NCBI GenBank assembly: GCA_902761655.1
Contig: CACWLD010000011.1
Span: 1 to 35,561, forward strand
Origin: an uncultured Bacteroidia bacterium
Lineage (GTDB): Bacteria; Bacteroidota; Bacteroidia; Bacteroidales; UBA932
Length of the DNA stretch: 35,561 nucleotides
Direction of reading: 5' to 3'
The notes beneath the pieces were generated by a model that was given only the letters and a program-made list of their open reading frames with translations, was not told the origin of the DNA and did not search any database. The position numbers were made by a program, and so were the translations under genes. Of the stretch, positions 2,148 to 11,074 are shown one piece after another; position 1 is the first letter of the stretch; every line of letters starts with the position of its first letter.

Positions 2148-3941
2148 ATGGCAGTTAAAATGCATATTTTGGTTTGCGGTGGTACAGGTTGCTCCGCATC
2201 CGCTAGTCACGAGGTCGTTACCGAACTCAACAAGGAACTCGTGGCTCACGACCTGACCGACTTCGCCAAGGTAGTCGTTACCGGCTGCTTCGGATTCTGC
2301 GAAAGAGGTCCTATCGTCAAGATCATTCCTGACAATACTTTCTACACAAGGGTTCAGCCCTCTGATGCAAAGGAAATCATCGAGGAACACATCATCAAGG
2401 GACGTAAAGTACAGCGCCTCCTCTATGTAGCCCCTGACACAAACCAGAGCGTATCTGACTCCAAGCATATGGAGTTCTACAAGAAGCAGCTCCGTATCGC
2501 CCTCCGCAACTGCGGTTTCATCGATCCTGAGAACATCGAGGAGTCAATCGCACGCGACGGCTACGCTGCCCTCGGAAAGTGTCTTACTGAAATGACCCCT
2601 GCACAGGTTATCGAAGAGATCAAGAAGTCAGGTCTCCGCGGACGCGGCGGCGCCGGCTTCCCCACGGGACTCAAGTGGGAGATCGCTTCCAAGAGCCGCG
2701 TAGGCGAGCAGAAATACGTTGTCTGCAACGCCGACGAGGGTGACCCGGGTGCATTTATGGACCGTTCACTCCTTGAAGGAGACCCTCACTCAATCCTTGA
2801 GGCAATGGCCATCTGCGGTTATTGCATCGGTGCAAGCAAGGGACTTATCTATATCCGTGCAGAGTATCCTCTGGCAATCCACCGTCTCCAGGTAGCCATC
2901 AAGCAGGCTGAGGAATACGGCCTTCTTGGCAAGGACATCCTGGGCACCGGATTCGACTTCGAGATCGAGCTCCGCTACGGCGCGGGCGCATTCGTCTGCG
3001 GAGAGGAGACCGCCCTCATCCACTCAATGGAAGGAAAGCGCGGTGAGCCTACATTCAAACCACCGTTCCCTGCTCAGTCCGGTTATCTTGAGAAGCCTAC
3101 CAACGTGAACAACGTTGAGACTTACGCCAACATCCCTGTAATCATCAACAAGGGCGCTGACTGGTTCTCAAGCATCGGAACAGAGAAGTCAAAGGGTACA
3201 AAGGTATTCGCCCTCGCAGGAAAGATCAACAACGTGGGACTTATCGAGGTTCCTATGGGAATCACCCTTCGTGAGATCATCTACGAGATTGGCGGCGGAA
3301 TCAGGGGAGGCAAGAAGTTCAAGGCCGTACAGACCGGAGGACCTTCCGGCGGATGCCTTACTGAAAAGCACCTCGACACCCCTATCGATTACGACAGCCT
3401 TGTAGCTGCAGGTTCAATGATGGGATCCGGCGGTATGATCGTAATGGACGAGGACGACTGTATGGTTGCCATCGCCAAGTTCTACCTTGGATTCACCGTT
3501 GACGAGTCCTGCGGTAAGTGCACCCCGTGCCGCGTAGGTAACAAGCGTCTCCTTGAGATCCTTACCAAGATCACCGACGGCAAGGGCACAATGCAGGATC
3601 TTGACGAGCTCAAGAACCTCTCCAACGTCATCAAGGACACCGCCCTCTGCGGACTTGGACAGACCTCACCTAACCCGGTACTCTCCACAATCAACAACTT
3701 CTGGGACGAGTACGTGGAGCACGTAACAGAGAAGAAGTGCCGTGCCGGCCAGTGCAAGGCCCTCAAGAAGTACTACATCGATCCTGAGAAGTGTAAAGGA
3801 TGCACCGCTTGTGCAAGGGCTTGCCCCGTTGGTGCCATCACCGGAACCCTCAAGAACCCTCACACAATCGATCAGGACAAGTGTATCAAGTGCGGTACCT
3901 GCTACGAGAAGTGCCGCTTTGGAGCTATCAGCATTAAATAA
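2148..3941 (+). CDS. hydB: [FeFe]-hydrogenase subunit HydB (NuoF-like, NAD/FMN)
   Basis: This is the diaphorase subunit that exchanges electrons between NAD(H) and the hydrogenase. In order: an N-terminal thioredoxin-like [2Fe-2S] domain (Cys10, 15, 47, 51); the NuoF core with glycine-rich FMN/NADH loop GLRGRGGAGFPTGLKW (163-177) and GAGAFVCGEETALIHSMEG (278-296); an SLBB region; the [4Fe-4S] motif ESCGKCTPCR (Cys455, 458, 461) with Cys501; and a C-terminal pair of [4Fe-4S] ferredoxin motifs (Cys549-559 and 579-589). The 597-residue length and domain order match HydB of electron-bifurcating A3-type hydrogenases. hydA starts 14 bases downstream behind AGGGAGG. Bifurcation with ferredoxin is inferred from architecture. 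Confidence 0.96.
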   Translation: MAVKMHILVCGGTGCSASASHEVVTELNKELVAHDLTDFAKVVVTGCFGFCERGPIVKIIPDNTFYTRVQPSDAKEIIEEHIIKGRKVQRLLYVAPDTNQSVSDSKHMEFYKKQLRIALRNCGFIDPENIEESIARDGYAALGKCLTEMTPAQVIEEIKKSGLRGRGGAGFPTGLKWEIASKSRVGEQKYVVCNADEGDPGAFMDRSLLEGDPHSILEAMAICGYCIGASKGLIYIRAEYPLAIHRLQVAIKQAEEYGLLGKDILGTGFDFEIELRYGAGAFVCGEETALIHSMEGKRGEPTFKPPFPAQSGYLEKPTNVNNVETYANIPVIINKGADWFSSIGTEKSKGTKVFALAGKINNVGLIEVPMGITLREIIYEIGGGIRGGKKFKAVQTGGPSGGCLTEKHLDTPIDYDSLVAAGSMMGSGGMIVMDEDDCMVAIAKFYLGFTVDESCGKCTPCRVGNKRLLEILTKITDGKGTMQDLDELKNLSNVIKDTALCGLGQTSPNPVLSTINNFWDEYVEHVTEKKCRAGQCKALKKYYIDPEKCKGCTACARACPVGAITGTLKNPHTIDQDKCIKCGTCYEKCRFGAISIK

Positions 3942-3955
3942 GGGAGGAATAATAT

Positions 3956-5731
3956 ATGGATACTATCAAATTGACTATAGACAACAGAGCAGTAGAAGTG
4001 CCAAAAGGTACTACTATCTTGAAAGCTGCCGAGCAGATGGGTATCAAGATTCCTACCCTCTGTAATTTCGAACTCGAAGGCCTCGCCCTCAAGAACCATC
4101 CGGGCGGATGCCGTATCTGCGTAGTTGAGGTTGCAGGCCGCAGGAACCTTGCTCCGGCCTGTATCACAGAGTGTATGCAGGATATGGTTGTGAAGACCAA
4201 CTCTCCTCGCGCCATCAACGCACGCAAGACCGTCCTTGAGCTTATGCTCAGCGACCACCCCAACGACTGTCTCCAGTGCCCCAAGAACGGCAAGTGCGAA
4301 CTTCAGTCCCTTGCTGCCGATATGGGCATCCGCGAGATCCCTTACAAGGGCGAGCAGTCAGAATACCCCATCGAGCTTTCACCGTCCATCGTACGCGACG
4401 CCAACAAGTGTATTATGTGCCGCCGCTGCGAGTCCGTATGCCACGAATACCAGAGCGTAGGCGCAATTGGAGCTGTTGAAAGAGGCTTCCCTGCAGTGGT
4501 TGCTCCTGCCTTCGGCAAGAATCTCATCGAGACCAACTGCGTATTCTGCGGCCAGTGTATCGCTGTCTGCCCTGTAGGCGCCCTCTCAGAGGTTGACCAT
4601 ACAGGAAAGGTTCTGCGCGACATTGCCAACCCTGATGTCAAGACCGCCGTACAGGTTGCACCTGCAGTGCGCGTCGCCCTTGGCGAGGAGTTTGGAATGC
4701 CTGCCGGAAGCATCGTTACCGGAAAGATCGCAGCCGCCCTCAAGGCTATTGGCTTCGACTATGTATTTGACACTGACTGGTCAGCTGACCTCACCATTAT
4801 GGAAGAGGGCACAGAGGCCATAGGCCGCTTCAAGGCCTTCCTGTCAGGCGACAAGAACGTCAAGATCCCTATTATGACTTCCTGCTGCCCTGCCTGGGTC
4901 AACTTCTACGAGAAGTTCTATCCTGAACTCCGCGAGTATCCTTCAACGGCCAAGTCCCCTCAGGGTATGTTCGGAGCAACGGTCAAGACATACTTCGCAG
5001 ACAAGATTGGCATTCCTCGCGAGAAACTCATCTCCGTATCAGTAATGCCTTGCGTTGCCAAGAAGTACGAGTGCGAGCGTGAGGAACTGGGAGCCAACGG
5101 CAACCCTGACGTTGATTACTCAATCACCACCCGCGAGCTTGCACGCCTCATCAAGATGTGCAACATTGACTTCAACAACCTTCCTGAGGCCAAGTTCGAC
5201 TCTCCTCTCGGCGAGTCTACAGGTGCTGCCGTAATCTTCGGCGTTACCGGAGGCGTTATGGAGGCTGCTCTCCGTACAGCTGCCGAGATCCTTACCGGAC
5301 AGACCCTTCCAAAGGTTGACTTCGAGGAAGTCCGCGGTCTGGAGGGCGTACGCGAAGCCACCATTCCTATCCCGGGAGTGATAGACCTGAAGGTAGCAGT
5401 AGTTTACGGACTCAAGAACGCACGTATGATAATGGAGCAGATAAAGGCCGGCAACTGCCCTTATCACTTCGTTGAGGTAATGGCCTGCCCTGGCGGATGT
5501 ATCGACGGCGCCGGACAGCCTTTCCACCACGGAGACGCTTCCATCATCAGGGCACGTCACGCTGCCATCTACAAGGCTGACAGGGATATGCCTCTGCGCA
5601 AGTCTCACGAGAATCCTGAGATCATCTCCATCTACAAGGAGTTCTACGGAGAGCCCGGCTCAGAGAAAGCACATCACCTGCTTCACACTCAATACTTCGA
5701 CAAGAAAAAACAGTTTGACCTTGAAAAATAA
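3956..5731 (+). CDS. hydA: [FeFe]-hydrogenase catalytic subunit HydA
   Basis: The catalytic subunit for reversible H2 formation. The N-terminal [2Fe-2S] domain has Cys36, 52, 55 and 69. A His-ligated [4Fe-4S] site has His101 with Cys105, 108 and 114. Two ferredoxin-type [4Fe-4S] motifs are at Cys152-162 and 195-205. The H-domain has all three signatures: L1 TSCCPAW (Cys310, 311), L2 MPCVAKKYE (Cys366) and L3 EVMACPGGC (Cys511, 515). The proton-relay Cys310 and all four H-cluster cysteines are therefore present, so it should be active. The small-subunit-like tail (EFYGEPGSEKAHHLLH) is complete, and there is no extra C-terminal [2Fe-2S] domain. A strong AGGGAGG at 3941-3947 fixes the ATG at 3956. 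It sits between hydB and hydC, as expected for a trimeric NAD-dependent enzyme. Confidence 0.97.
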   Translation: MDTIKLTIDNRAVEVPKGTTILKAAEQMGIKIPTLCNFELEGLALKNHPGGCRICVVEVAGRRNLAPACITECMQDMVVKTNSPRAINARKTVLELMLSDHPNDCLQCPKNGKCELQSLAADMGIREIPYKGEQSEYPIELSPSIVRDANKCIMCRRCESVCHEYQSVGAIGAVERGFPAVVAPAFGKNLIETNCVFCGQCIAVCPVGALSEVDHTGKVLRDIANPDVKTAVQVAPAVRVALGEEFGMPAGSIVTGKIAAALKAIGFDYVFDTDWSADLTIMEEGTEAIGRFKAFLSGDKNVKIPIMTSCCPAWVNFYEKFYPELREYPSTAKSPQGMFGATVKTYFADKIGIPREKLISVSVMPCVAKKYECEREELGANGNPDVDYSITTRELARLIKMCNIDFNNLPEAKFDSPLGESTGAAVIFGVTGGVMEAALRTAAEILTGQTLPKVDFEEVRGLEGVREATIPIPGVIDLKVAVVYGLKNARMIMEQIKAGNCPYHFVEVMACPGGCIDGAGQPFHHGDASIIRARHAAIYKADRDMPLRKSHENPEIISIYKEFYGEPGSEKAHHLLHTQYFDKKKQFDLEK

Positions 5732-5738
5732 TTGAACA

Positions 5739-6224
5739 ATGTGTGGACCCAAGATAAAAATCAGTGAAGCCAATTACCTTAAGATCAAGGAGATTTGCGC
5801 TTCTTTCAACAACAACCCGGGTGAGCTGATCAATGTGCTGCACAAGACTCAGGAGCACTTTGGCTATCTTCCTGAGGAAGTCCAGCAGGTTGTGGCAGAC
5901 TGCCTCGGAATCCCTGTAGGAAAAGTGTACGGCGTTGTATCCTTCTACAGCTTCTTCACAATGAAGCCTAAGGGAAAATACGCTATCTCCGTATGTCTCG
6001 GAACTGCCTGCTACGTCAAGGGCGCTGAGAAGATCCTGGACGCTCTCAAGAGCGAGCTCAAGATCTCCGAAGGCGGCGTTACCGACGACGGCAAGTTCTC
6101 CCTGGACGTACTGCGCTGCGTGGGCGCCTGCGGTCTGGCTCCGGTTATGACCATCAACGGCAAGACCTACGGACGTCTCGTTCCCGAGCAGGTTAAGAGC
6201 ATCCTTGCCGAGTACGCTGACTAA
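5739..6224 (+). CDS. hydC: [FeFe]-hydrogenase subunit HydC (NuoE-like)
   Basis: A 161-residue NuoE-family subunit carrying one [2Fe-2S] cluster that relays electrons between HydB flavin and HydA. The helical N-terminus (GYLPEEVQQVVADCLGI) is followed by the thioredoxin-like ferredoxin fold with Cys86 and Cys91 (SVCLGTACYVKG) and Cys127 and Cys131 (LRCVGACGLAPV). All four ligands are present, unlike the cysteine-free relative at the head of the operon. The gene begins 7 bases after the hydA stop. A strong hairpin follows, so this looks like the last structural subunit gene. Confidence 0.95.
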   Translation: MCGPKIKISEANYLKIKEICASFNNNPGELINVLHKTQEHFGYLPEEVQQVVADCLGIPVGKVYGVVSFYSFFTMKPKGKYAISVCLGTACYVKGAEKILDALKSELKISEGGVTDDGKFSLDVLRCVGACGLAPVMTINGKTYGRLVPEQVKSILAEYAD

Positions 6225-6243
6225 GACATACTTCCAATAACGC

Positions 6244-6275
6244 TTCGGGCCGGTTTCTGTCAAAGCCGGCCCGAA
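6244..6275 (+). terminator. GC-rich hairpin after hydC (terminator or attenuator)
   Basis: TTCGGGCCGG (6244-6253) and CCGGCCCGAA (6266-6275) form a perfect 10-bp stem, extendable by two A-T pairs, around a short loop. Only TCTAATT follows, so a classical U-tract is missing. It sits in the 69-base gap between the structural and accessory hyd genes and could partly terminate transcription or protect the hydBAC mRNA 3' end. Confidence 0.5.
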
Positions 6276-6293: not shown

Positions 6294-6638
6294 ATGACTA
6301 TTAAGGAAATTGCAAGACTTGTAGAAGGCGAGATCGTTGGCGCACCTGCCGACGACACCTATGATGTGGAAAAGGCCTTTGCCTCTGACCTGATGAGCGA
6401 CGTCCTCCGTTTCTCTATGGACGAGACCGTCCTCATCACCGGACTTTGCAACAACCAGACTATGCGTACCAGCGAGATGGCTGACCTGCGCGTAGTGGTT
6501 ATCGGGCGTGACAAGCAGCCTGACGAGGATATGCTTGAACTGGCCCAGGACCTGGACATCACTTTGATCAAGTCTAAATTCAGTATATTCAAAATCAGCG
6601 GCATTTTGTACCAAGCCGGAATCAAACCACTTTATTGA
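6294..6638 (+). CDS. DRTGG-domain protein (first copy)
   Basis: A 114-residue single-domain protein resembling DRTGG domains, which occur near CBS and phosphotransacetylase-type proteins and are thought to bind small ligands. The segment KAFASDLMSDVLRF recurs in the second DRTGG gene of the locus as GAYASDLLSDVMGN, followed in both by a hydrophobic strand, a VVIxR-type strand and a PDxDMLxxA helix. No catalytic motif is visible. It opens the six-gene accessory block, and its TGA is 2 bases before the next ATG. Such proteins are found beside hydrogenase-like sensors in Clostridia, but their role there is not established to my knowledge. Confidence 0.75.
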   Translation: MTIKEIARLVEGEIVGAPADDTYDVEKAFASDLMSDVLRFSMDETVLITGLCNNQTMRTSEMADLRVVVIGRDKQPDEDMLELAQDLDITLIKSKFSIFKISGILYQAGIKPLY

Positions 6639-6640
6639 TA

Positions 6641-7054
6641 ATGCATTATACATTTGAAATAGAGCGCGGTAATTTTACCGATGCAGGACAGGCATCCAGC
6701 AGCGTCAAGCGCACCCTGAAGCATCTGGGCGTGGCTCCCGCCAACATCAAGCGCACCGTAGTTGCGCTCTTCGAGGCGGAGATCAACGCCATCGCCCACG
6801 CTTATGGAGGAACCATTGACGTTGACATCGATGACGAGAAGATTGTAATGGTGGTGGCCGACTCCGGCCCCGGCATCCCCAATCTTGACCTCGCAATGCA
6901 GGAAGGCTGGTCAACCGCATCCGCTGAAGTTCGCGAGATGGGTTACGGAGCCGGGATGGGCCTGCCAAACATCAAGAAGAATACCGACGACCTTAAAATT
7001 GAATCCACAGTGGGAGTCGGAACCACAGTAACAATGACAGTATTTTTTGCCTAA
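6641..7054 (+). CDS. RsbW-like GHKL ATPase (anti-sigma-factor/serine kinase family)
   Basis: A 137-residue HATPase_c protein of the short anti-sigma-factor kinase type. The N-box is EAEINAIAHA (Glu45, Asn49), the G1 box is DSGPGIP (Asp74) and the G2 box is GYGAGMGLPNIKKN (101-114). All residues needed for ATP and Mg binding appear intact. RsbW/SpoIIAB proteins bind sigma factors or phosphorylate anti-anti-sigma proteins; no partner of that kind is encoded here, so its target is unknown. ATG at 6641 is preferred to an in-frame TTG at 6635, which overlaps the upstream stop. The next gene follows after 3 bases, indicating tight coupling. Confidence 0.85.
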   Translation: MHYTFEIERGNFTDAGQASSSVKRTLKHLGVAPANIKRTVVALFEAEINAIAHAYGGTIDVDIDDEKIVMVVADSGPGIPNLDLAMQEGWSTASAEVREMGYGAGMGLPNIKKNTDDLKIESTVGVGTTVTMTVFFA

Positions 7055-7057
7055 ACT

Positions 7058-8413
7058 ATGGCTGCACAAGAGACCTTCTTTGGTCATTCACTCAAGGTTG
7101 ACAAGAACCGATGCCTGGGCTGCACCACCTGTATGCGCTCGTGCCCTACCGGGGCCATCCGCATACGTGGCGGCAAAGCGGAGATGAACGACAACAAATG
7201 CGTGGACTGCGGAAACTGTATGAAAGTATGTCCGCACAAGGCCATCTATATCCAGCAGGACGACTTTGCCCTGATACATAACTATAAATATAGGGTATGC
7301 CTTGTACCTACCACTTTCATTGGCCAGTTCGAGGAAAAGTTCAAGACCAGGGAAATCTACGCCTGCCTCAAGAAACTGGGATTCACCCATATCTACGAGG
7401 TTGAGCACGAGGTTGAATACATTGTGGAACTCTACAACAAGTACATAGCCAAGCACCCTGAGATCCAAACGTTCATTTCTCCGTATTGCCCGGCCGTGAT
7501 ACGTCTCATCCAGGTGAGATTCCCATCTCTGGTGGACAACATTATCAAGATCAGGGCGCCGTTTGAGCTGGCAGCCCTCATAATGACAAACCGCCTGATG
7601 GACGAAGGAGCGGACCGCGAGGACATAGGAGTCTTCTACGTAACCCCGTGCGCGGCCAAGATAGCCGCTGTCAAATATCCAGTCAGCAACAAGGAGACCT
7701 GCATTACCGGCGTCATCAATATGGACTTCCTGTACAACAAGGTGCAGCTGATGCTTCGCGAATCAAAGAAAGACGCAGAGGCCATCAACCACTCCCTCAC
7801 TTCCAGGGATGTTCTATGGCCCCTTCCGGGAGGAGAAGCCTCCCTGTTCAACGGCTCGCATTATGCGGTTGACGGCCTTCAGAACGTGCTGAATTTCCTT
7901 GAGAGGCTTGAGGATGAAGCCATTGACGCCCAAGGACTTGTGGAGATGCGTATGTGTGACCAGGGCTGTGTCGGAGGCGTCCTTGCCACCAACAACCGCT
8001 TTGTAGCCCGCAAGAGGCTGGAGGACCGCGCCCGCGTTCTGGACAAACCGGACCGTCCCCTGAACCGTTACACCCGCTACAACAATCCGGAGTTCTGCAA
8101 ATGGATAGACGGGATGATGGAGATTGACGAGATCACCCCTCACTCCATCTACAAGTTGGACGACAACTTCTCAGAAGCCATCAAGATGGCCGAGAGGATG
8201 AAAAAGATAGAGAAGGCCCTTCCAGGCGTGAACTGCTCCGCCTGCGGCGCGCCTTCCTGCGCCGCCCTTGCGGAGGACATAGTGCGCGGAGATGCCGACA
8301 TCAGTTCCTGTATGTTCATCAACCGCCACACACAGGCCTCTGAAGATGCCATCCGCAATATCTGGGGAGACCGCATCAAGACAAAGACAATCAATAACGA
8401 CAAAACAGAATAA
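7058..8413 (+). CDS. HydS-like protein: ferredoxin, degenerate Fe-hydrogenase domain and Fe-S domain
   Basis: 451 residues. Two N-terminal [4Fe-4S] motifs (Cys19-29 and 48-58) lead into an Fe-hydrogenase large-subunit fold, then a C-terminal four-Cys Fe-S domain of PF04060 type (Cys393, 396, 401, 418). The H-domain is altered: L1 reads SPYCP, so the proton-relay Cys is Tyr143 while Cys144 remains; L2 reads TPCAAK instead of MPCxxK (Cys198); L3 reads RMCDQGC (Cys300, 304). The four cubane ligands therefore survive but the proton path does not. This resembles sensory group C hydrogenases (HydS), but the PAS and phosphatase domains common there are absent. Flanking GHKL ATPases suggest a separately encoded signalling output. 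A sensory role is inferred. Confidence 0.85.
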   Translation: MAAQETFFGHSLKVDKNRCLGCTTCMRSCPTGAIRIRGGKAEMNDNKCVDCGNCMKVCPHKAIYIQQDDFALIHNYKYRVCLVPTTFIGQFEEKFKTREIYACLKKLGFTHIYEVEHEVEYIVELYNKYIAKHPEIQTFISPYCPAVIRLIQVRFPSLVDNIIKIRAPFELAALIMTNRLMDEGADREDIGVFYVTPCAAKIAAVKYPVSNKETCITGVINMDFLYNKVQLMLRESKKDAEAINHSLTSRDVLWPLPGGEASLFNGSHYAVDGLQNVLNFLERLEDEAIDAQGLVEMRMCDQGCVGGVLATNNRFVARKRLEDRARVLDKPDRPLNRYTRYNNPEFCKWIDGMMEIDEITPHSIYKLDDNFSEAIKMAERMKKIEKALPGVNCSACGAPSCAALAEDIVRGDADISSCMFINRHTQASEDAIRNIWGDRIKTKTINNDKTE

Positions 8414-8418
8414 CCAAT

Positions 8419-8748
8419 ATGACAGTAAAGGATATCATTGAAAAACTCCAGCTCGAGTGCCTCAACGAGGCCAATCTGGATGCTGAAGTAAACGGTGCGT
8501 ACGCATCGGACCTTCTCAGCGACGTTATGGGCAATGCCCGCAGCGGACAGGTATGGGTAACAATGCAGACCCACAAGAACGTCACCGCAATCGCTTCCCT
8601 GAGGGACCTTCCCGCAGTGATCATAGTTCGCGGCGGCGTGCCTGACCAGGATATGCTGGATCACGCCAAGGACGAGGACATCTGCATCCTGGTAAGCCAG
8701 GAGCCCACTTTCCAAGTCTGCGGAAAGCTCTACGAAATTCTCAAGTAG
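8419..8748 (+). CDS. DRTGG-domain protein (second copy)
   Basis: A 109-residue paralogue of the first DRTGG protein, sharing the ASDLLSDVM segment, the central LPAVIIVRGG strand and PDQDMLDHAKDEDICIL. It starts 5 bases after the hydrogenase-like sensor and ends 6 bases before the PHP gene. The two copies flank the ATPase-sensor pair, so they may form a heterodimeric ligand-binding unit. No enzymatic residues are visible, and function is inferred only from context. Confidence 0.75.
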   Translation: MTVKDIIEKLQLECLNEANLDAEVNGAYASDLLSDVMGNARSGQVWVTMQTHKNVTAIASLRDLPAVIIVRGGVPDQDMLDHAKDEDICILVSQEPTFQVCGKLYEILK

Positions 8749-8754
8749 AATCCC

Positions 8755-9489
8755 GTGAAATTCAAGGCCGATATGCACATCCACTCGGTGCTGTCCCCCT
8801 GCGGCGACATCGAGATGAGCCCCTCCGTCATTGTATCGACGGCAAAGGAGCGCGGGCTTGACATAATTGGCCTGACAGACCATAACTCCACCCTGAACGC
8901 CGCGGTTGCACAGCGGCTTGGAGAGAAAGTGGGCCTGCACGTGATGATGGGTGCGGAGGTGACCACAAAGGAAGAGGTCCACTGCGTCTGCTTTATGCCC
9001 ACCGTGGAAAAGCTGGCTGAATTCCAGGCATTTCTGGACTCGCGCGTCATTTTCTTTGAGAACGACGTGGACAAGTTCGGATACCAGTTTGTGGTTGACG
9101 AGGACGAGAACGTCCTGGACGAAGTGCCCCACCTGCTGATAAACGCCCTGGACCTTCCTATGCTGGAACTCCAGCAGAAGGTGTATGAGATGGGCGGTAT
9201 CTTCATCCCTGCGCACATAGACAGGCCAACCTTCAGCCTTTCATCCCAGTTGGGATTCGTCCCTGACAAGCTCAAGTTCCACGCAATGGAACTAAGCTAC
9301 TACTGCAAGCGGAACAACTACAAGTTCCTGGAGGACTGCCCCTGGTTCAGTGACTTCAACTTCATCCAGAGCAGCGACGCCCATTATATAGAAGACATCG
9401 GCAAGATATACAGCGTGCTGGAGATGCCTTCTTTCAGTTTTGACAATTTCAAGGAAGCCCTCCGCCCGGGAGAGCCTGTAATCCTGTAA
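8755..9489 (+). CDS. PHP-domain metal-dependent phosphoesterase
   Basis: A 244-residue PHP-superfamily protein with a full set of metal ligands: ADMHIHS (His8, His10), GLTDHN (Asp42, His43), MGAEVT (Glu68), EVHCVCF (His76), IPAHIDRP (His154) and SSDAHY (Asp208, His210). Family members hydrolyse phosphoesters such as nucleotides or histidinol phosphate. No extra domain points to a substrate. The start is GTG at 8755, 6 bases after the previous stop; no ATG upstream gives a better fit. Its place among the regulatory genes suggests it makes or degrades a phosphorylated signal or protein modification, but that is speculation. Confidence 0.85.
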   Translation: MKFKADMHIHSVLSPCGDIEMSPSVIVSTAKERGLDIIGLTDHNSTLNAAVAQRLGEKVGLHVMMGAEVTTKEEVHCVCFMPTVEKLAEFQAFLDSRVIFFENDVDKFGYQFVVDEDENVLDEVPHLLINALDLPMLELQQKVYEMGGIFIPAHIDRPTFSLSSQLGFVPDKLKFHAMELSYYCKRNNYKFLEDCPWFSDFNFIQSSDAHYIEDIGKIYSVLEMPSFSFDNFKEALRPGEPVIL

Positions 9490-9490
9490 T

Positions 9491-10024
9491 ATGAAAAGTC
9501 TTGACCTTCACATTATTGACATAACCCACAATTCCATCCGTGCGGGTGCAACCCAGATAACCATTGAGATGGAAGACAGCGTAAAGCGCGACCTGCTCTC
9601 CATAAAGATCATAGACAATGGGTGCGGAATGCCGGAGGATATGATAGCAGCCATCAACGACCGCTTCTATTCCTGCCGCAAGGAACGCAAGATTGGAATG
9701 GGAATAGCGCTGCTGAAGTTCCATTCCCAGATGTGCAACGGCAATTTCTACCTCAAGTCAAAGGTGGGCGAAGGGACAGAGATCTATGCTTCCTACCAGC
9801 GCTCGCACATAGACCTGCAGCCCAAGGGAGACCTGTCAGGATGCTTTGCAAACTTCATCTGCCAGTACCAGGACATCAATTTCATTATCCGTTACATAAC
9901 GGACGATGACACCTTTGAGCTGAGCACGGCGGATGTCAAGGAGGTGTTCGAGGGAATGAACCTCAACGACTATGAGATAATCAAGAGCCTGACGGAACTG
10001 ATTCACGAGAACATAGGAAGTTAA
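9491..10024 (+). CDS. Second GHKL ATPase with C-terminal extension
   Basis: A 177-residue protein. Its first ~100 residues form an ATP-binding GHKL fold: an N-box-like DITHNSIRAGA with Asn14 (the usual Glu is Asp10), G1 IDNGCGMP (Asp42) and G2 KIGMGIALLK (68-76). The fold has little N-terminal sequence before the N-box, so it lacks a dimerisation helix pair. About 75 residues of C-terminal extension have no recognised domain. The ATG is one base after the PHP stop and hydE begins 3 bases after its stop, so it belongs to the same transcript as the H-cluster maturase. It may be a kinase or ATP-dependent switch; the partner is unknown. Confidence 0.8.
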   Translation: MKSLDLHIIDITHNSIRAGATQITIEMEDSVKRDLLSIKIIDNGCGMPEDMIAAINDRFYSCRKERKIGMGIALLKFHSQMCNGNFYLKSKVGEGTEIYASYQRSHIDLQPKGDLSGCFANFICQYQDINFIIRYITDDDTFELSTADVKEVFEGMNLNDYEIIKSLTELIHENIGS

Positions 10025-10027
10025 GCG

Positions 10028-11074
10028 ATGGACAGGGAAGAAATCAAGGTCCTGCTTGCATCCGAAGGGCCTGCGATGAAAAGCCTCCTGCAGCGCGCGC
10101 AGGATGTCAAGTTCAAATATCTGGACAACTATGTCCATCTGAGGGGTCTTATCGAATACGGCAATGTATGCGAGAAGAATTGCCTGTACTGCGGTCTGAG
10201 GAGTGGGAACGGCAAGGTGGAGCGCTACTGCCTCAGCGACGAGGAAGTGCTGGAATGCGCCCGCCTGGCCCACGAACTGGGTTACGGTTCTGTAGCCCTG
10301 CAAAGCGGTGAGCGCAGCGATCCGGAGTTCATAGACAAGATAGAGTATCTGGTAAGGGAAATCAAGAAGATAGACGGTGGAAGCCTTGGCATCACCCTTT
10401 CGCTGGGTGAACAGAGCGAGGAAACCTACAGGCGTTGGTTCCAGGCCGGAGCCCACCGCTATCTGTTAAGGATAGAGTCTTCGTCCGAGGAACTATATTA
10501 CAAGATCCACCCAAAGAACGCCAAGCACAGCTTCCAGCACCGGCTGGATTGCCTGGAGAGCCTCAAAAGCATTGGCTACCAGACGGGAACCGGAGTAATG
10601 GTAGGTCTTCCATTCCAGACCCTGGACCATCTTGCGGACGACCTTCTGTTCTTCCAGAAGATGGATGTGGCAATGGTAGGAATAGGCCCCTACATCCCCC
10701 ATCCCGACACTCCCCTGTACCGGTTCAAGGACCTTGTACCTTCTGCAAAAGAGCGTATGGATATGACTCTCAAGATGATAGCCGTCCTGCGGATTATGAT
10801 GCCGGAGATCAATATGGTGGCGGCCACGGCCAACCAGACCGTGGATCCACAGGGAAGGGAGAAGGCGATTGCGGCTGGAGCCAATGTCATAATGCCTAAC
10901 CTAACGCCCGGAGAATACCGCGAGAGTTATTTCATCTACCCTGACAAGGCCTGCGTAAAGGATATGCCGGACCAGTGCAAGTCCTGCCTGGACATTCGTC
11001 TTGCAGCCATAGGGCACAAGATTCTATACAATGCCTGGGGAGATTCTGTAGCCTTCACAAAGAAGGCCCGCTGA
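10028..11074 (+). CDS. hydE: [FeFe]-hydrogenase maturase HydE (radical SAM)
   Basis: HydE is a radical SAM enzyme that helps build the organometallic precursor of the H-cluster. The SAM cluster motif VCEKNCLYCGL supplies Cys48, 52 and 55 (CX3CX2C). The auxiliary CX7CX2C motif near the C-terminus is also present (Cys309, 317, 320; ACVKDMPDQCKSC). LGYGSVALQSGE and the TGVMVGLPFQT region fit the radical SAM barrel, and the 348-residue length is typical. It is the last gene of the plus-strand hyd transcription unit, 3 bases after the ATPase gene. It ends 7 bases from the convergent hydF stop. Confidence 0.95.
   Translation: MDREEIKVLLASEGPAMKSLLQRAQDVKFKYLDNYVHLRGLIEYGNVCEKNCLYCGLRSGNGKVERYCLSDEEVLECARLAHELGYGSVALQSGERSDPEFIDKIEYLVREIKKIDGGSLGITLSLGEQSEETYRRWFQAGAHRYLLRIESSSEELYYKIHPKNAKHSFQHRLDCLESLKSIGYQTGTGVMVGLPFQTLDHLADDLLFFQKMDVAMVGIGPYIPHPDTPLYRFKDLVPSAKERMDMTLKMIAVLRIMMPEINMVAATANQTVDPQGREKAIAAGANVIMPNLTPGEYRESYFIYPDKACVKDMPDQCKSCLDIRLAAIGHKILYNAWGDSVAFTKKAR

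Follow-up and report, generated by a model that had tools for sequence, protein, structure and literature searches.

Putative sensory hydrogenases and related systems

A HydS protein of group D, which is an [FeFe]-hydrogenase-like iron-sulfur protein without a PAS domain, is already known beside a kinase and a bifurcating hydrogenase of the HydABC type; in the available text of PubMed Central (PMC) article PMC3561251 it lies five locus tags ahead of that hydrogenase in five clostridial genomes, and the published table gives it as Cthe_0335 in C. thermocellum. A histidine kinase, Cthe_0339, is reported within Cthe_0338-0342 (excerpts of PMC3990059), and the way in which group D sensory hydrogenases relay their signal is treated as an open question in print (passages of PMC8163306 and PMC13104023). 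The present analysis concerns six consecutive genes, one of them for a HydS, that lie between hydC and hydE in a stretch of 35,561 nucleotides (nt) from an uncultured Bacteroidia bacterium (Bacteroidales, UBA932; GenBank assembly GCA_902761655.1, contig CACWLD010000011.1); this whole stretch is called the window below. A first-pass annotation had read the six genes as a module for sensing H2 or redox state. It was found that the module is real, conserved and wider in reach than had been proposed, the hydrogenase-linked form of the window being one branch of a candidate cassette. With a probability of about 0.58, they form a regulatory cassette dedicated to electron-bifurcating complexes of the HydABC/BfuABC type, which use NAD(H) and ferredoxin, with HydS as an exchangeable H2/redox input. 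Control of this whole class of enzymes is preferred over H2 sensing alone, because the six-gene set also stands beside related enzymes in bacteria without a detectable hydrogenase. The six genes are the following (aa, amino acids; TM, template modelling score; rows are those of the respective protein alignments):

6294..6638, plus strand: DRT1, DRTGG-fold protein, 114 aa; Pfam DRTGG 20.8 bits (below cut-off); model against 2ioj, TM 0.83; Ser35 in 64/64 rows
6641..7054, plus strand: AtpW, RsbW/SpoIIAB-like ATPase; PF13581 54.7 bits; SpoIIAB 1til, E 1e-5; E45 and N49 in 65/65 rows
7058..8413, plus strand: HydS, group D [FeFe]-hydrogenase-like iron-sulfur protein, 451 aa; PF02906 75.1 bits; ligand cysteines, Cx2Cx4Cx16C and putative proton-path residues
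8419..8748, plus strand: DRT2, DRTGG/Hpr_kinase_N-like protein, 109 aa; PF02603 26.4 bits (above cut-off); Ser34 in 63/63 rows
8755..9489, plus strand: PHP metallo-phosphoesterase, 244 aa; PF02811 32.0 bits; putative metal ligands conserved in 98-100% of 63 rows
9491..10024, plus strand: GHKL ATPase with an extra C-terminal part, 177 aa; PF02518 49.7 bits; DxGxG in 100% and N-box Asp/Asn in 98% of 60 rows

Several described systems resemble parts of this set. TamHydS of Thermoanaerobacter mathranii, a putative sensory protein of group D (M2e), shares the group D marks and the lack of PAS with the HydS of the window, but at the C299 position, where Ala is typical of group D, Phe or Tyr is found here, and Arg stands at the M497 position. 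HydS of group C (M2f), as in Ruminococcus albus and Monoglobus, has the same H-domain and a proposed sensing function; it carries PAS, and the HydS-like genes there adjoin SpoIIE phosphatases, whereas the HydS of the window has no PAS, has other partners and falls in a separate clade of the tree. Membership of group C was rejected on the absence of PAS and on the separate clade. AtpW shares its sequence and N-box with the partner-switching kinases RsbW and SpoIIAB and likewise has a small partner gene beside it, but the partner is a DRTGG protein and not a STAS protein, and neither a sigma factor nor STAS is among the commonest neighbours. In HprK, a DRTGG/Hpr_kinase_N-like domain is also coupled to a kinase-like domain; here the ATPase is of the GHKL type and mostly a separate protein, and the module contains no P-loop kinase domain and no HPr.

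The complexes that the module accompanies, with their exchangeable A subunits, resemble the BfuABC family (PMC9304861), for which the available part of that paper describes no cassette. For the group D type, the accessible portions of the papers found mention neither partners of the DRTGG, PHP and second-ATPase kinds nor non-hydrogenase-linked forms. No description of such a set with bifurcating hydrogenases, or of a form of it on non-hydrogenase complexes, was found in the accessible text of the open-licence PMC literature, where the one paper on DRTGG and hydrogenase concerned another protein.

Conservation, order and co-occurrence of the module

The search with HydS gave 23 rumen relatives, and order and strand of the six genes agree in 23/23 (DRT1 is cut by a contig end in L011; loci carry L numbers and genomes G numbers). 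A wider survey covered 198 genomes sampled evenly over the order. A HydS match is present in 59 of them, and 54 loci with a module-type HydS were fetched from diverse families of the order (L079, L091-L143). The order DRTGG-ATPase-HydS-DRTGG-PHP-ATPase is complete in 42 of the 54; in the remaining loci the halves are swapped (one, L123), only the DRT1-AtpW-HydS half is present (six), GHKL is missing (one, L130) or a contig end cuts the set (four). The concern that the families had come together by chance in one genome, for which a neighbourhood survey had been advised, is answered by this conservation of order. CD, the working label for the small protein gene that precedes hydB in the window, or HydB itself lies directly downstream of the module in 34/42 full-order loci, and in the other eight no HydABC occurs within the 5.6 to 7.7 kb visible downstream. 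Hence, the usual place of the module is upstream of HydABC, and the arrangement in the window was read as a rearrangement. The gene hydE follows GHKL immediately in only 3/23 relatives (L009, L014, L019) besides the window, and it was rejected as a module member; that the six genes run straight into hydE is true of the window (3 nt gap) but not of the module in general.

The module is built of two halves, [DRTGG-ATPase-HydS] and [DRTGG-PHP-ATPase], as the genomes with a half-module have the PHP-half genes elsewhere in 6/6 cases (the DRT1 side is cut in L137). In L164, only DRT2 and PHP are visible before the contig end. Outside the order set, a Parabacteroides distasonis record (L150) has the six genes, with no HydABC within 12 kb on either side. 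This record (NZ_OY725779.1, 375 kb) is labelled a plasmid, carries gyrA and resembles a piece of chromosome. In a Subdoligranulum variabile record (Clostridia), DRT1-ATPase-HydS-DRT2-PHP is divergent from HydC-GHKL-HydB-HydA. Locus tags in the excerpts of PMC3561251 and PMC3990059 point to a like arrangement in clostridia; the two tags in between, we infer, would be DRTGG and PHP genes.

Across the 198 genomes, HydS and PHP occur together in 56, HydS alone in 3, PHP alone in 4 and neither in 135 (Fisher p 1.4e-40, computed without correction for relatedness). The 59 HydS genomes include two with the non-hydrogenase-linked form (G266, G342), one with a truncated HydS (G374) and one with a group C-like match (G268, L146). 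In a strict count, module-type HydS and PHP are found together in 55 genomes, HydS without PHP in one (G374) and PHP without HydS in five, G268, where PHP sits at a contig start, being added to the last class. A HydA of the NF040763 kind is present in 58/59 HydS genomes, which supports the proposed tie of a conserved module to a hydrogenase cluster. Of 126 genomes with HydA, 64 have neither HydS nor PHP and 68 lack HydS at the search threshold; the module is almost always accompanied by HydABC, while HydABC often occurs without the module. HydG was undetected in 9/59 HydS genomes; as HydA is present in almost every genome with HydS, HydG cannot separate H-cluster use here.

The HydS protein

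In addition to the Fe_hyd_lg_C match (PF02906), HydS has ferredoxin motifs and an FeS match (PF04060, 47.2 bits); a Pfam scan gave no match to PAS. Residues were counted in 77 HydS rows from hydrogenase genomes, 24 of them from the window and its close rumen relatives, after removal of HydA and 20 rows (group C, non-hydrogenase-linked, truncated or HydA-like). The N-terminus of module-type rows has two [4Fe-4S] motifs (cysteines CCCC/CCCC), the four Cys of the [4Fe-4S]H cluster in the H-domain are present in 77/77, and Lys stands at CpI position 358 in 76/77. The C-terminal Cx2Cx4Cx16C (C393, C396, C401, C418) has the exact spacing of the published group D motif (available part of PMC8163306). 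The putative proton-path residues E260, E296 and D272, equated with E252, E289 and D265 of TamHydS by motif context and offset and not by aligning TamHydS, are each found in 77/77 rows, as is T or S at position 196 (the M353 position). The C299 position is Phe in 48 and Tyr in 29 of the 77, and the M497 position is Arg in all; the Clostridia record (L151) has Ala and Asp there instead. As judged from sequence, HydS has the published group D marks, apart from Ala at the C299 position, which is typical of the group but not given as defining it. The aromatic and Arg residues of the diiron-site pocket were seen in HydS of the window, L009-L031, L079 and L091-L142, and an H-cluster pocket of this composition was not met in the accessible parts of the papers found.

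In G198 (99% complete, about 140 contigs), HydS is the sole PF02906 protein found and HydE, HydF and HydG are above cut-off, which suggests that this HydS takes the H-cluster cofactor, although a gap could conceal HydA, and G317, a species of the same genus, has HydA. Longer group C-like HydS of about 550-680 aa also occur in genomes of the phylum and order (L042, L043, L046-L049, L054, L055, L094, L117, L130, L131, L148).

The partner proteins

AtpW belongs to the HATPase_c_2 family, its closest solved structure is SpoIIAB 1til, and E45 and N49 are the Glu and Asn of the kinase N-box. The GHKL protein matches HATPase_c and is histidine-kinase-like; its AlphaFold2 (AF2) model had a mean predicted local distance difference test (pLDDT) of 53.6 and was not used. 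No phosphoacceptor (HisKA/DHp) domain was found in AtpW or GHKL by Pfam scan. A two-component system or a classical RsbW/STAS/sigma system was rejected because of this and because STAS and sigma factors are missing from the common neighbours. In L144 and L145, a DRTGG domain and an ATPase are fused in one protein.

Both DRT1 (20.8) and DRT2 (15.5) miss the Pfam DRTGG (PF07085) cut-off of 25.2, and DRT2 exceeds the Hpr_kinase_N threshold (26.4 against 24). The name DRTGG holds for DRT1 because its structure model (mean pLDDT 86.8) matches the DRTGG structure 2ioj; the TM to 3l31 is 0.76. The invariant Ser35 starts a helix in this model. No P-loop kinase domain was found in DRT1 or DRT2 by Pfam scan. 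The PHP protein passes the PHP cut-off of 26.4, has a PHP_C match of 27.0 bits and has conserved positions that are presumably metal ligands. It is weakly similar to models of 3',5'-nucleoside bisphosphate phosphatase and CehA/McbA, with scores far under the curated cut-offs (38.5 against 400; 40.3 against 80), and to the putative phosphoesterase 3e0f.

The family names given in the first-pass annotation were borne out by Pfam or structure matches for AtpW, HydS, PHP, GHKL and the fold of DRT1. Its view of a set divided over separate chains is also supported, as HydS has no PAS and the ATPases and PHP are separate proteins; the split is not new, however, being that of the published group D type. 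The suggested output through protein phosphorylation or a small phosphorylated signal would fit the intact ATPase and PHP residues.

Modules without HydS or beside other complexes

Four loci (L155-L158) have DRT1-AtpW-DRT2-PHP-GHKL without HydS and with the catalytic residues kept; their genomes gave no HydS match at the survey threshold, and all four have HydG. HydABC comes next after two of the sets (L157, L158), and after a third (L156) come HydB and an A subunit of the molybdopterin type; L155 ends after GHKL and has another HydABC set upstream. The HydC-HydB-molybdopterin operon of L144 and L145 lacks PHP and includes the DRTGG-ATPase fusion together with a DRTGG gene and one resembling HydS. 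In L171-L173 the full six-gene set is continued by HydC-CD-HydB and by an A subunit of about 590 aa, which has ferredoxin domains and no hydrogenase domain; the first module gene of L173 scores best as DRT2. This A subunit, of which Pfam names only the ferredoxin parts, we take to be HdrA-like from motifs compared by eye.

The HydS form of these non-hydrogenase operons was found in 20/245 genomes of the class of G172. The 17 further regions comprise ten with the full operon, two with a molybdopterin-type A subunit (L194, L195), two that have lost several genes (L198, L202) and three ending before the A subunit (L199-L201). Among the 22 HydS of the non-hydrogenase clade, the A subunit is visible in 19 cases, of which 13 were Pfam-checked and have no hydrogenase domain and 6 were assigned by weak HydA-profile scores and motif match. 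In L198 and L202 (G683, G702; one genus), HydS and GHKL are retained, and PHP, DRT1 and AtpW were not seen on the HdrA-like operon; the cassette on this operon seems to be breaking up in that genus.

G172 and G532, which carry the full set on a bifurcating operon lacking a hydrogenase domain, are 99% and 98% complete in about 10 and 20 contigs, respectively, and their HydS relative is the sole PF02906 protein. No HydE or HydG match was found in these two genomes and the best HydF match was 96 bits against a cut-off of 325.6; hence, their HydS can hardly carry an H-cluster. The module therefore occurs where no hydrogenase context was detected, which the first-pass annotation had named as a refutation of its reading. 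A reading limited to H2 sensing fails on this ground, and also because the five partner genes persist in L155-L158 although HydS is missing there.

In the 22 HydS of this clade the E252 position is never Glu and the D265 position never Asp, both being acidic in 77/77 HydS from hydrogenase genomes. In 20/22 the first N-terminal cluster has lost its second Cys, and the first Cys of the third H-domain motif is replaced by His in L194 and L195. The active-site residues of AtpW, GHKL and PHP, together with Ser35 of DRT1 and Ser34 of DRT2, are kept in the covering rows (L144, L145, L194 and L195 were omitted from this check, and two PHP rows are incomplete because their contigs end). The tree, built from 84 rows, groups the first five of the 22 in a single clade (100/99) that is distinct from both the hydrogenase-linked clade and group C.

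Gene layout in the window

The genome of the window is a 2.0 Mb draft in 63 contigs, 93.7% complete, with one HydS, and its close relatives are rumen and gut Bacteroidales metagenome-assembled genomes. On the plus strand the order is CD, hydB, hydA, hydC, the six module genes and hydE, with hydF and hydG further on, on the minus strand. Two further features adjoin the module:

2148..6224, plus strand: hydB, hydA, hydC, bifurcating-type hydrogenase accompanied by the module
6244..6275, plus strand: predicted hairpin between hydC and DRT1, present in 17/20 rumen loci examined

The product of hydA is an NADH-dependent [FeFe] hydrogenase (NF040763, 858 bits). The close packing first noted, with gaps of 1-6 nt, agrees with the open reading frame coordinates: the gaps from DRT1 to GHKL are 2, 3, 5, 6 and 1 nt, and hydE begins at 10028 after 3 nt. 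AtpW starts with ATG (6641; the longest reading frame begins instead at TTG, 6635) and PHP with GTG. The stop codon of hydC ends at 6224, and the 69 nt before DRT1 contain the hairpin, which is GC-rich, of the GGGCCGG..CCGGCCC type, and absent from the other 3 of the 20 rumen loci examined (among L009-L031), in which the hydC-DRT1 gap is 4-5 nt. It is perhaps a processing or attenuation site keeping the module level below that of HydABC. Promoter and terminator scans found 5 and 4 sites, where shuffled sequence gave 3.3 and 3.9.

Proposed function and alternatives

As a regulatory cassette for bifurcating complexes, the module would consist of two ATPase/partner switches and a phosphatase, with HydS as their input and, as their target, the bifurcating complex, perhaps its core (HydBC), or the expression of its genes. 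The hydrogenase-linked HydS, as in the window, which retains the putative group D proton-path residues, probably bears an H-cluster responding to H2 or redox state. Beside other bifurcating complexes these residues are lost and HydS is probably a plain iron-sulfur redox sensor, and a few genomes lack it altogether. Each ATPase may pair with a small DRTGG protein, much as RsbW does with its STAS partner or as in HPr kinase, and would phosphorylate or switch that protein (the candidate residues being the invariant Ser35 in DRT1 and Ser34 in DRT2) or act on the complex itself; PHP would be the opposing metallo-phosphatase, acting on protein. It can be put forward more tentatively, at slightly less than even odds, that this is an unrecognised common cassette for flavin-based electron bifurcation, in which an iron-sulfur sensor derived from a hydrogenase is read by a PHP phosphatase and two pairs of DRTGG protein and ATPase; depending on the adjoining complex (hydrogenase, molybdopterin-type or HdrA-like), the active site of this sensor would be intact, deprived of its H2 chemistry or missing.

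On comparing module-linked with module-free HydABC, no separating alignment column was found in HydA or HydC, while ten were found in HydB (mostly N-terminal) and two in CD (R25, E26), kinship being uncorrected. HydB residues 1 to about 115 (window 2148-2492) are present in 47/47 module-linked proteins, and 5/14 module-free ones have gaps at several conserved columns. The N-terminal part of HydB is a possible docking site for the module, a weak lead from alignment.

Several observations weigh against control of bifurcating complexes by the cassette. The C-terminal cluster of TamHydS is unresponsive to H2 (available part of PMC13104023), and the changes to Phe/Tyr at the C299 position and to Arg at the M497 position might exclude a diiron cluster. 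Around 82 module loci no output gene was identified, and no STAS protein or sigma factor was seen among the 30 most frequent clusters of neighbours, 7 of which were Pfam-checked; the recurrent neighbours, a SpoIIE phosphatase (7 loci), a PAS hybrid histidine kinase (6) and a response regulator (5), are too few for constant partners. The change of HydS role, though going with the partner complex, is as far as tested a single evolutionary event (5/22 in the tree, with bootstrap not settled and L173 long-branched), and in 3/22 regions the contig ends before the A subunit (L199-L201). The assemblies are mostly draft or metagenome-like and absences may be gaps; G180 has HydA, yet no HydE, HydF or HydG was found in it.

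The alternative that survives best, although doubtful, is a small-molecule circuit in which PHP would hydrolyse a phosphorylated nucleotide-like signal bound by both DRTGG proteins and gating the ATPases. DRTGG domains of CBS-pyrophosphatases (3l31) bind nucleotides, and the weak kinship of PHP to the nucleoside bisphosphate phosphatase and CehA/McbA models and to 3e0f points the same way, but those model scores lie far under the cut-offs and no signal-making gene was recognised in the module. A dedicated H2 sensor, with HydS reading H2 through an H-cluster and the five partners relaying the signal to the hydrogenase genes, which would be the first-pass view in narrowed form, is unlikely. HydA in 58/59 HydS genomes, the group D marks including the proton-path residues in 77/77, and the maturases of G198 with HydS as its sole PF02906 protein are consistent with it, whereas the full set in G172 and G532, the five genes that persist without HydS and the 68/126 HydA genomes without HydS at the search threshold speak against it.

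Less probable still is an assembly or repair set, in which the GHKL ATPases would be chaperone-like and HydS an electron or cluster donor, the module building or mending an iron-sulfur-rich complex. The constant companions are indeed complex genes, and HydABC-free regulators were not recognised, but about half of the HydA genomes (64/126) have neither HydS nor PHP, and AtpW keeps a kinase-type N-box. Chance or lineage-limited clustering without a common function, for which shared ancestry and the moderate, non-discriminating gene-distance correlations (r 0.33-0.83) might speak, was rejected as next to impossible in view of the order kept in 23/23 and 42/54 loci across many families and in the Clostridia record, and of a HydS/PHP co-occurrence that holds even with the halves apart.

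Significance

The five conserved partner genes, the DRTGG-ATPase fusion and the natural deletion variants are candidates for the signal relay of group D proteins. The HydS relatives in organisms without detectable H-cluster maturases are natural controls for separating H2 sensing from general redox sensing. If the common-cassette reading is true, the group D 'sensory hydrogenases' would belong, as one branch, to a larger family, which also takes in pseudo-hydrogenase redox sensors of organisms that have no hydrogenase. It would also mean shared control of bifurcating enzymes, which set the split of electrons among H2, NADH and ferredoxin in anaerobes of the rumen, gut and digesters.

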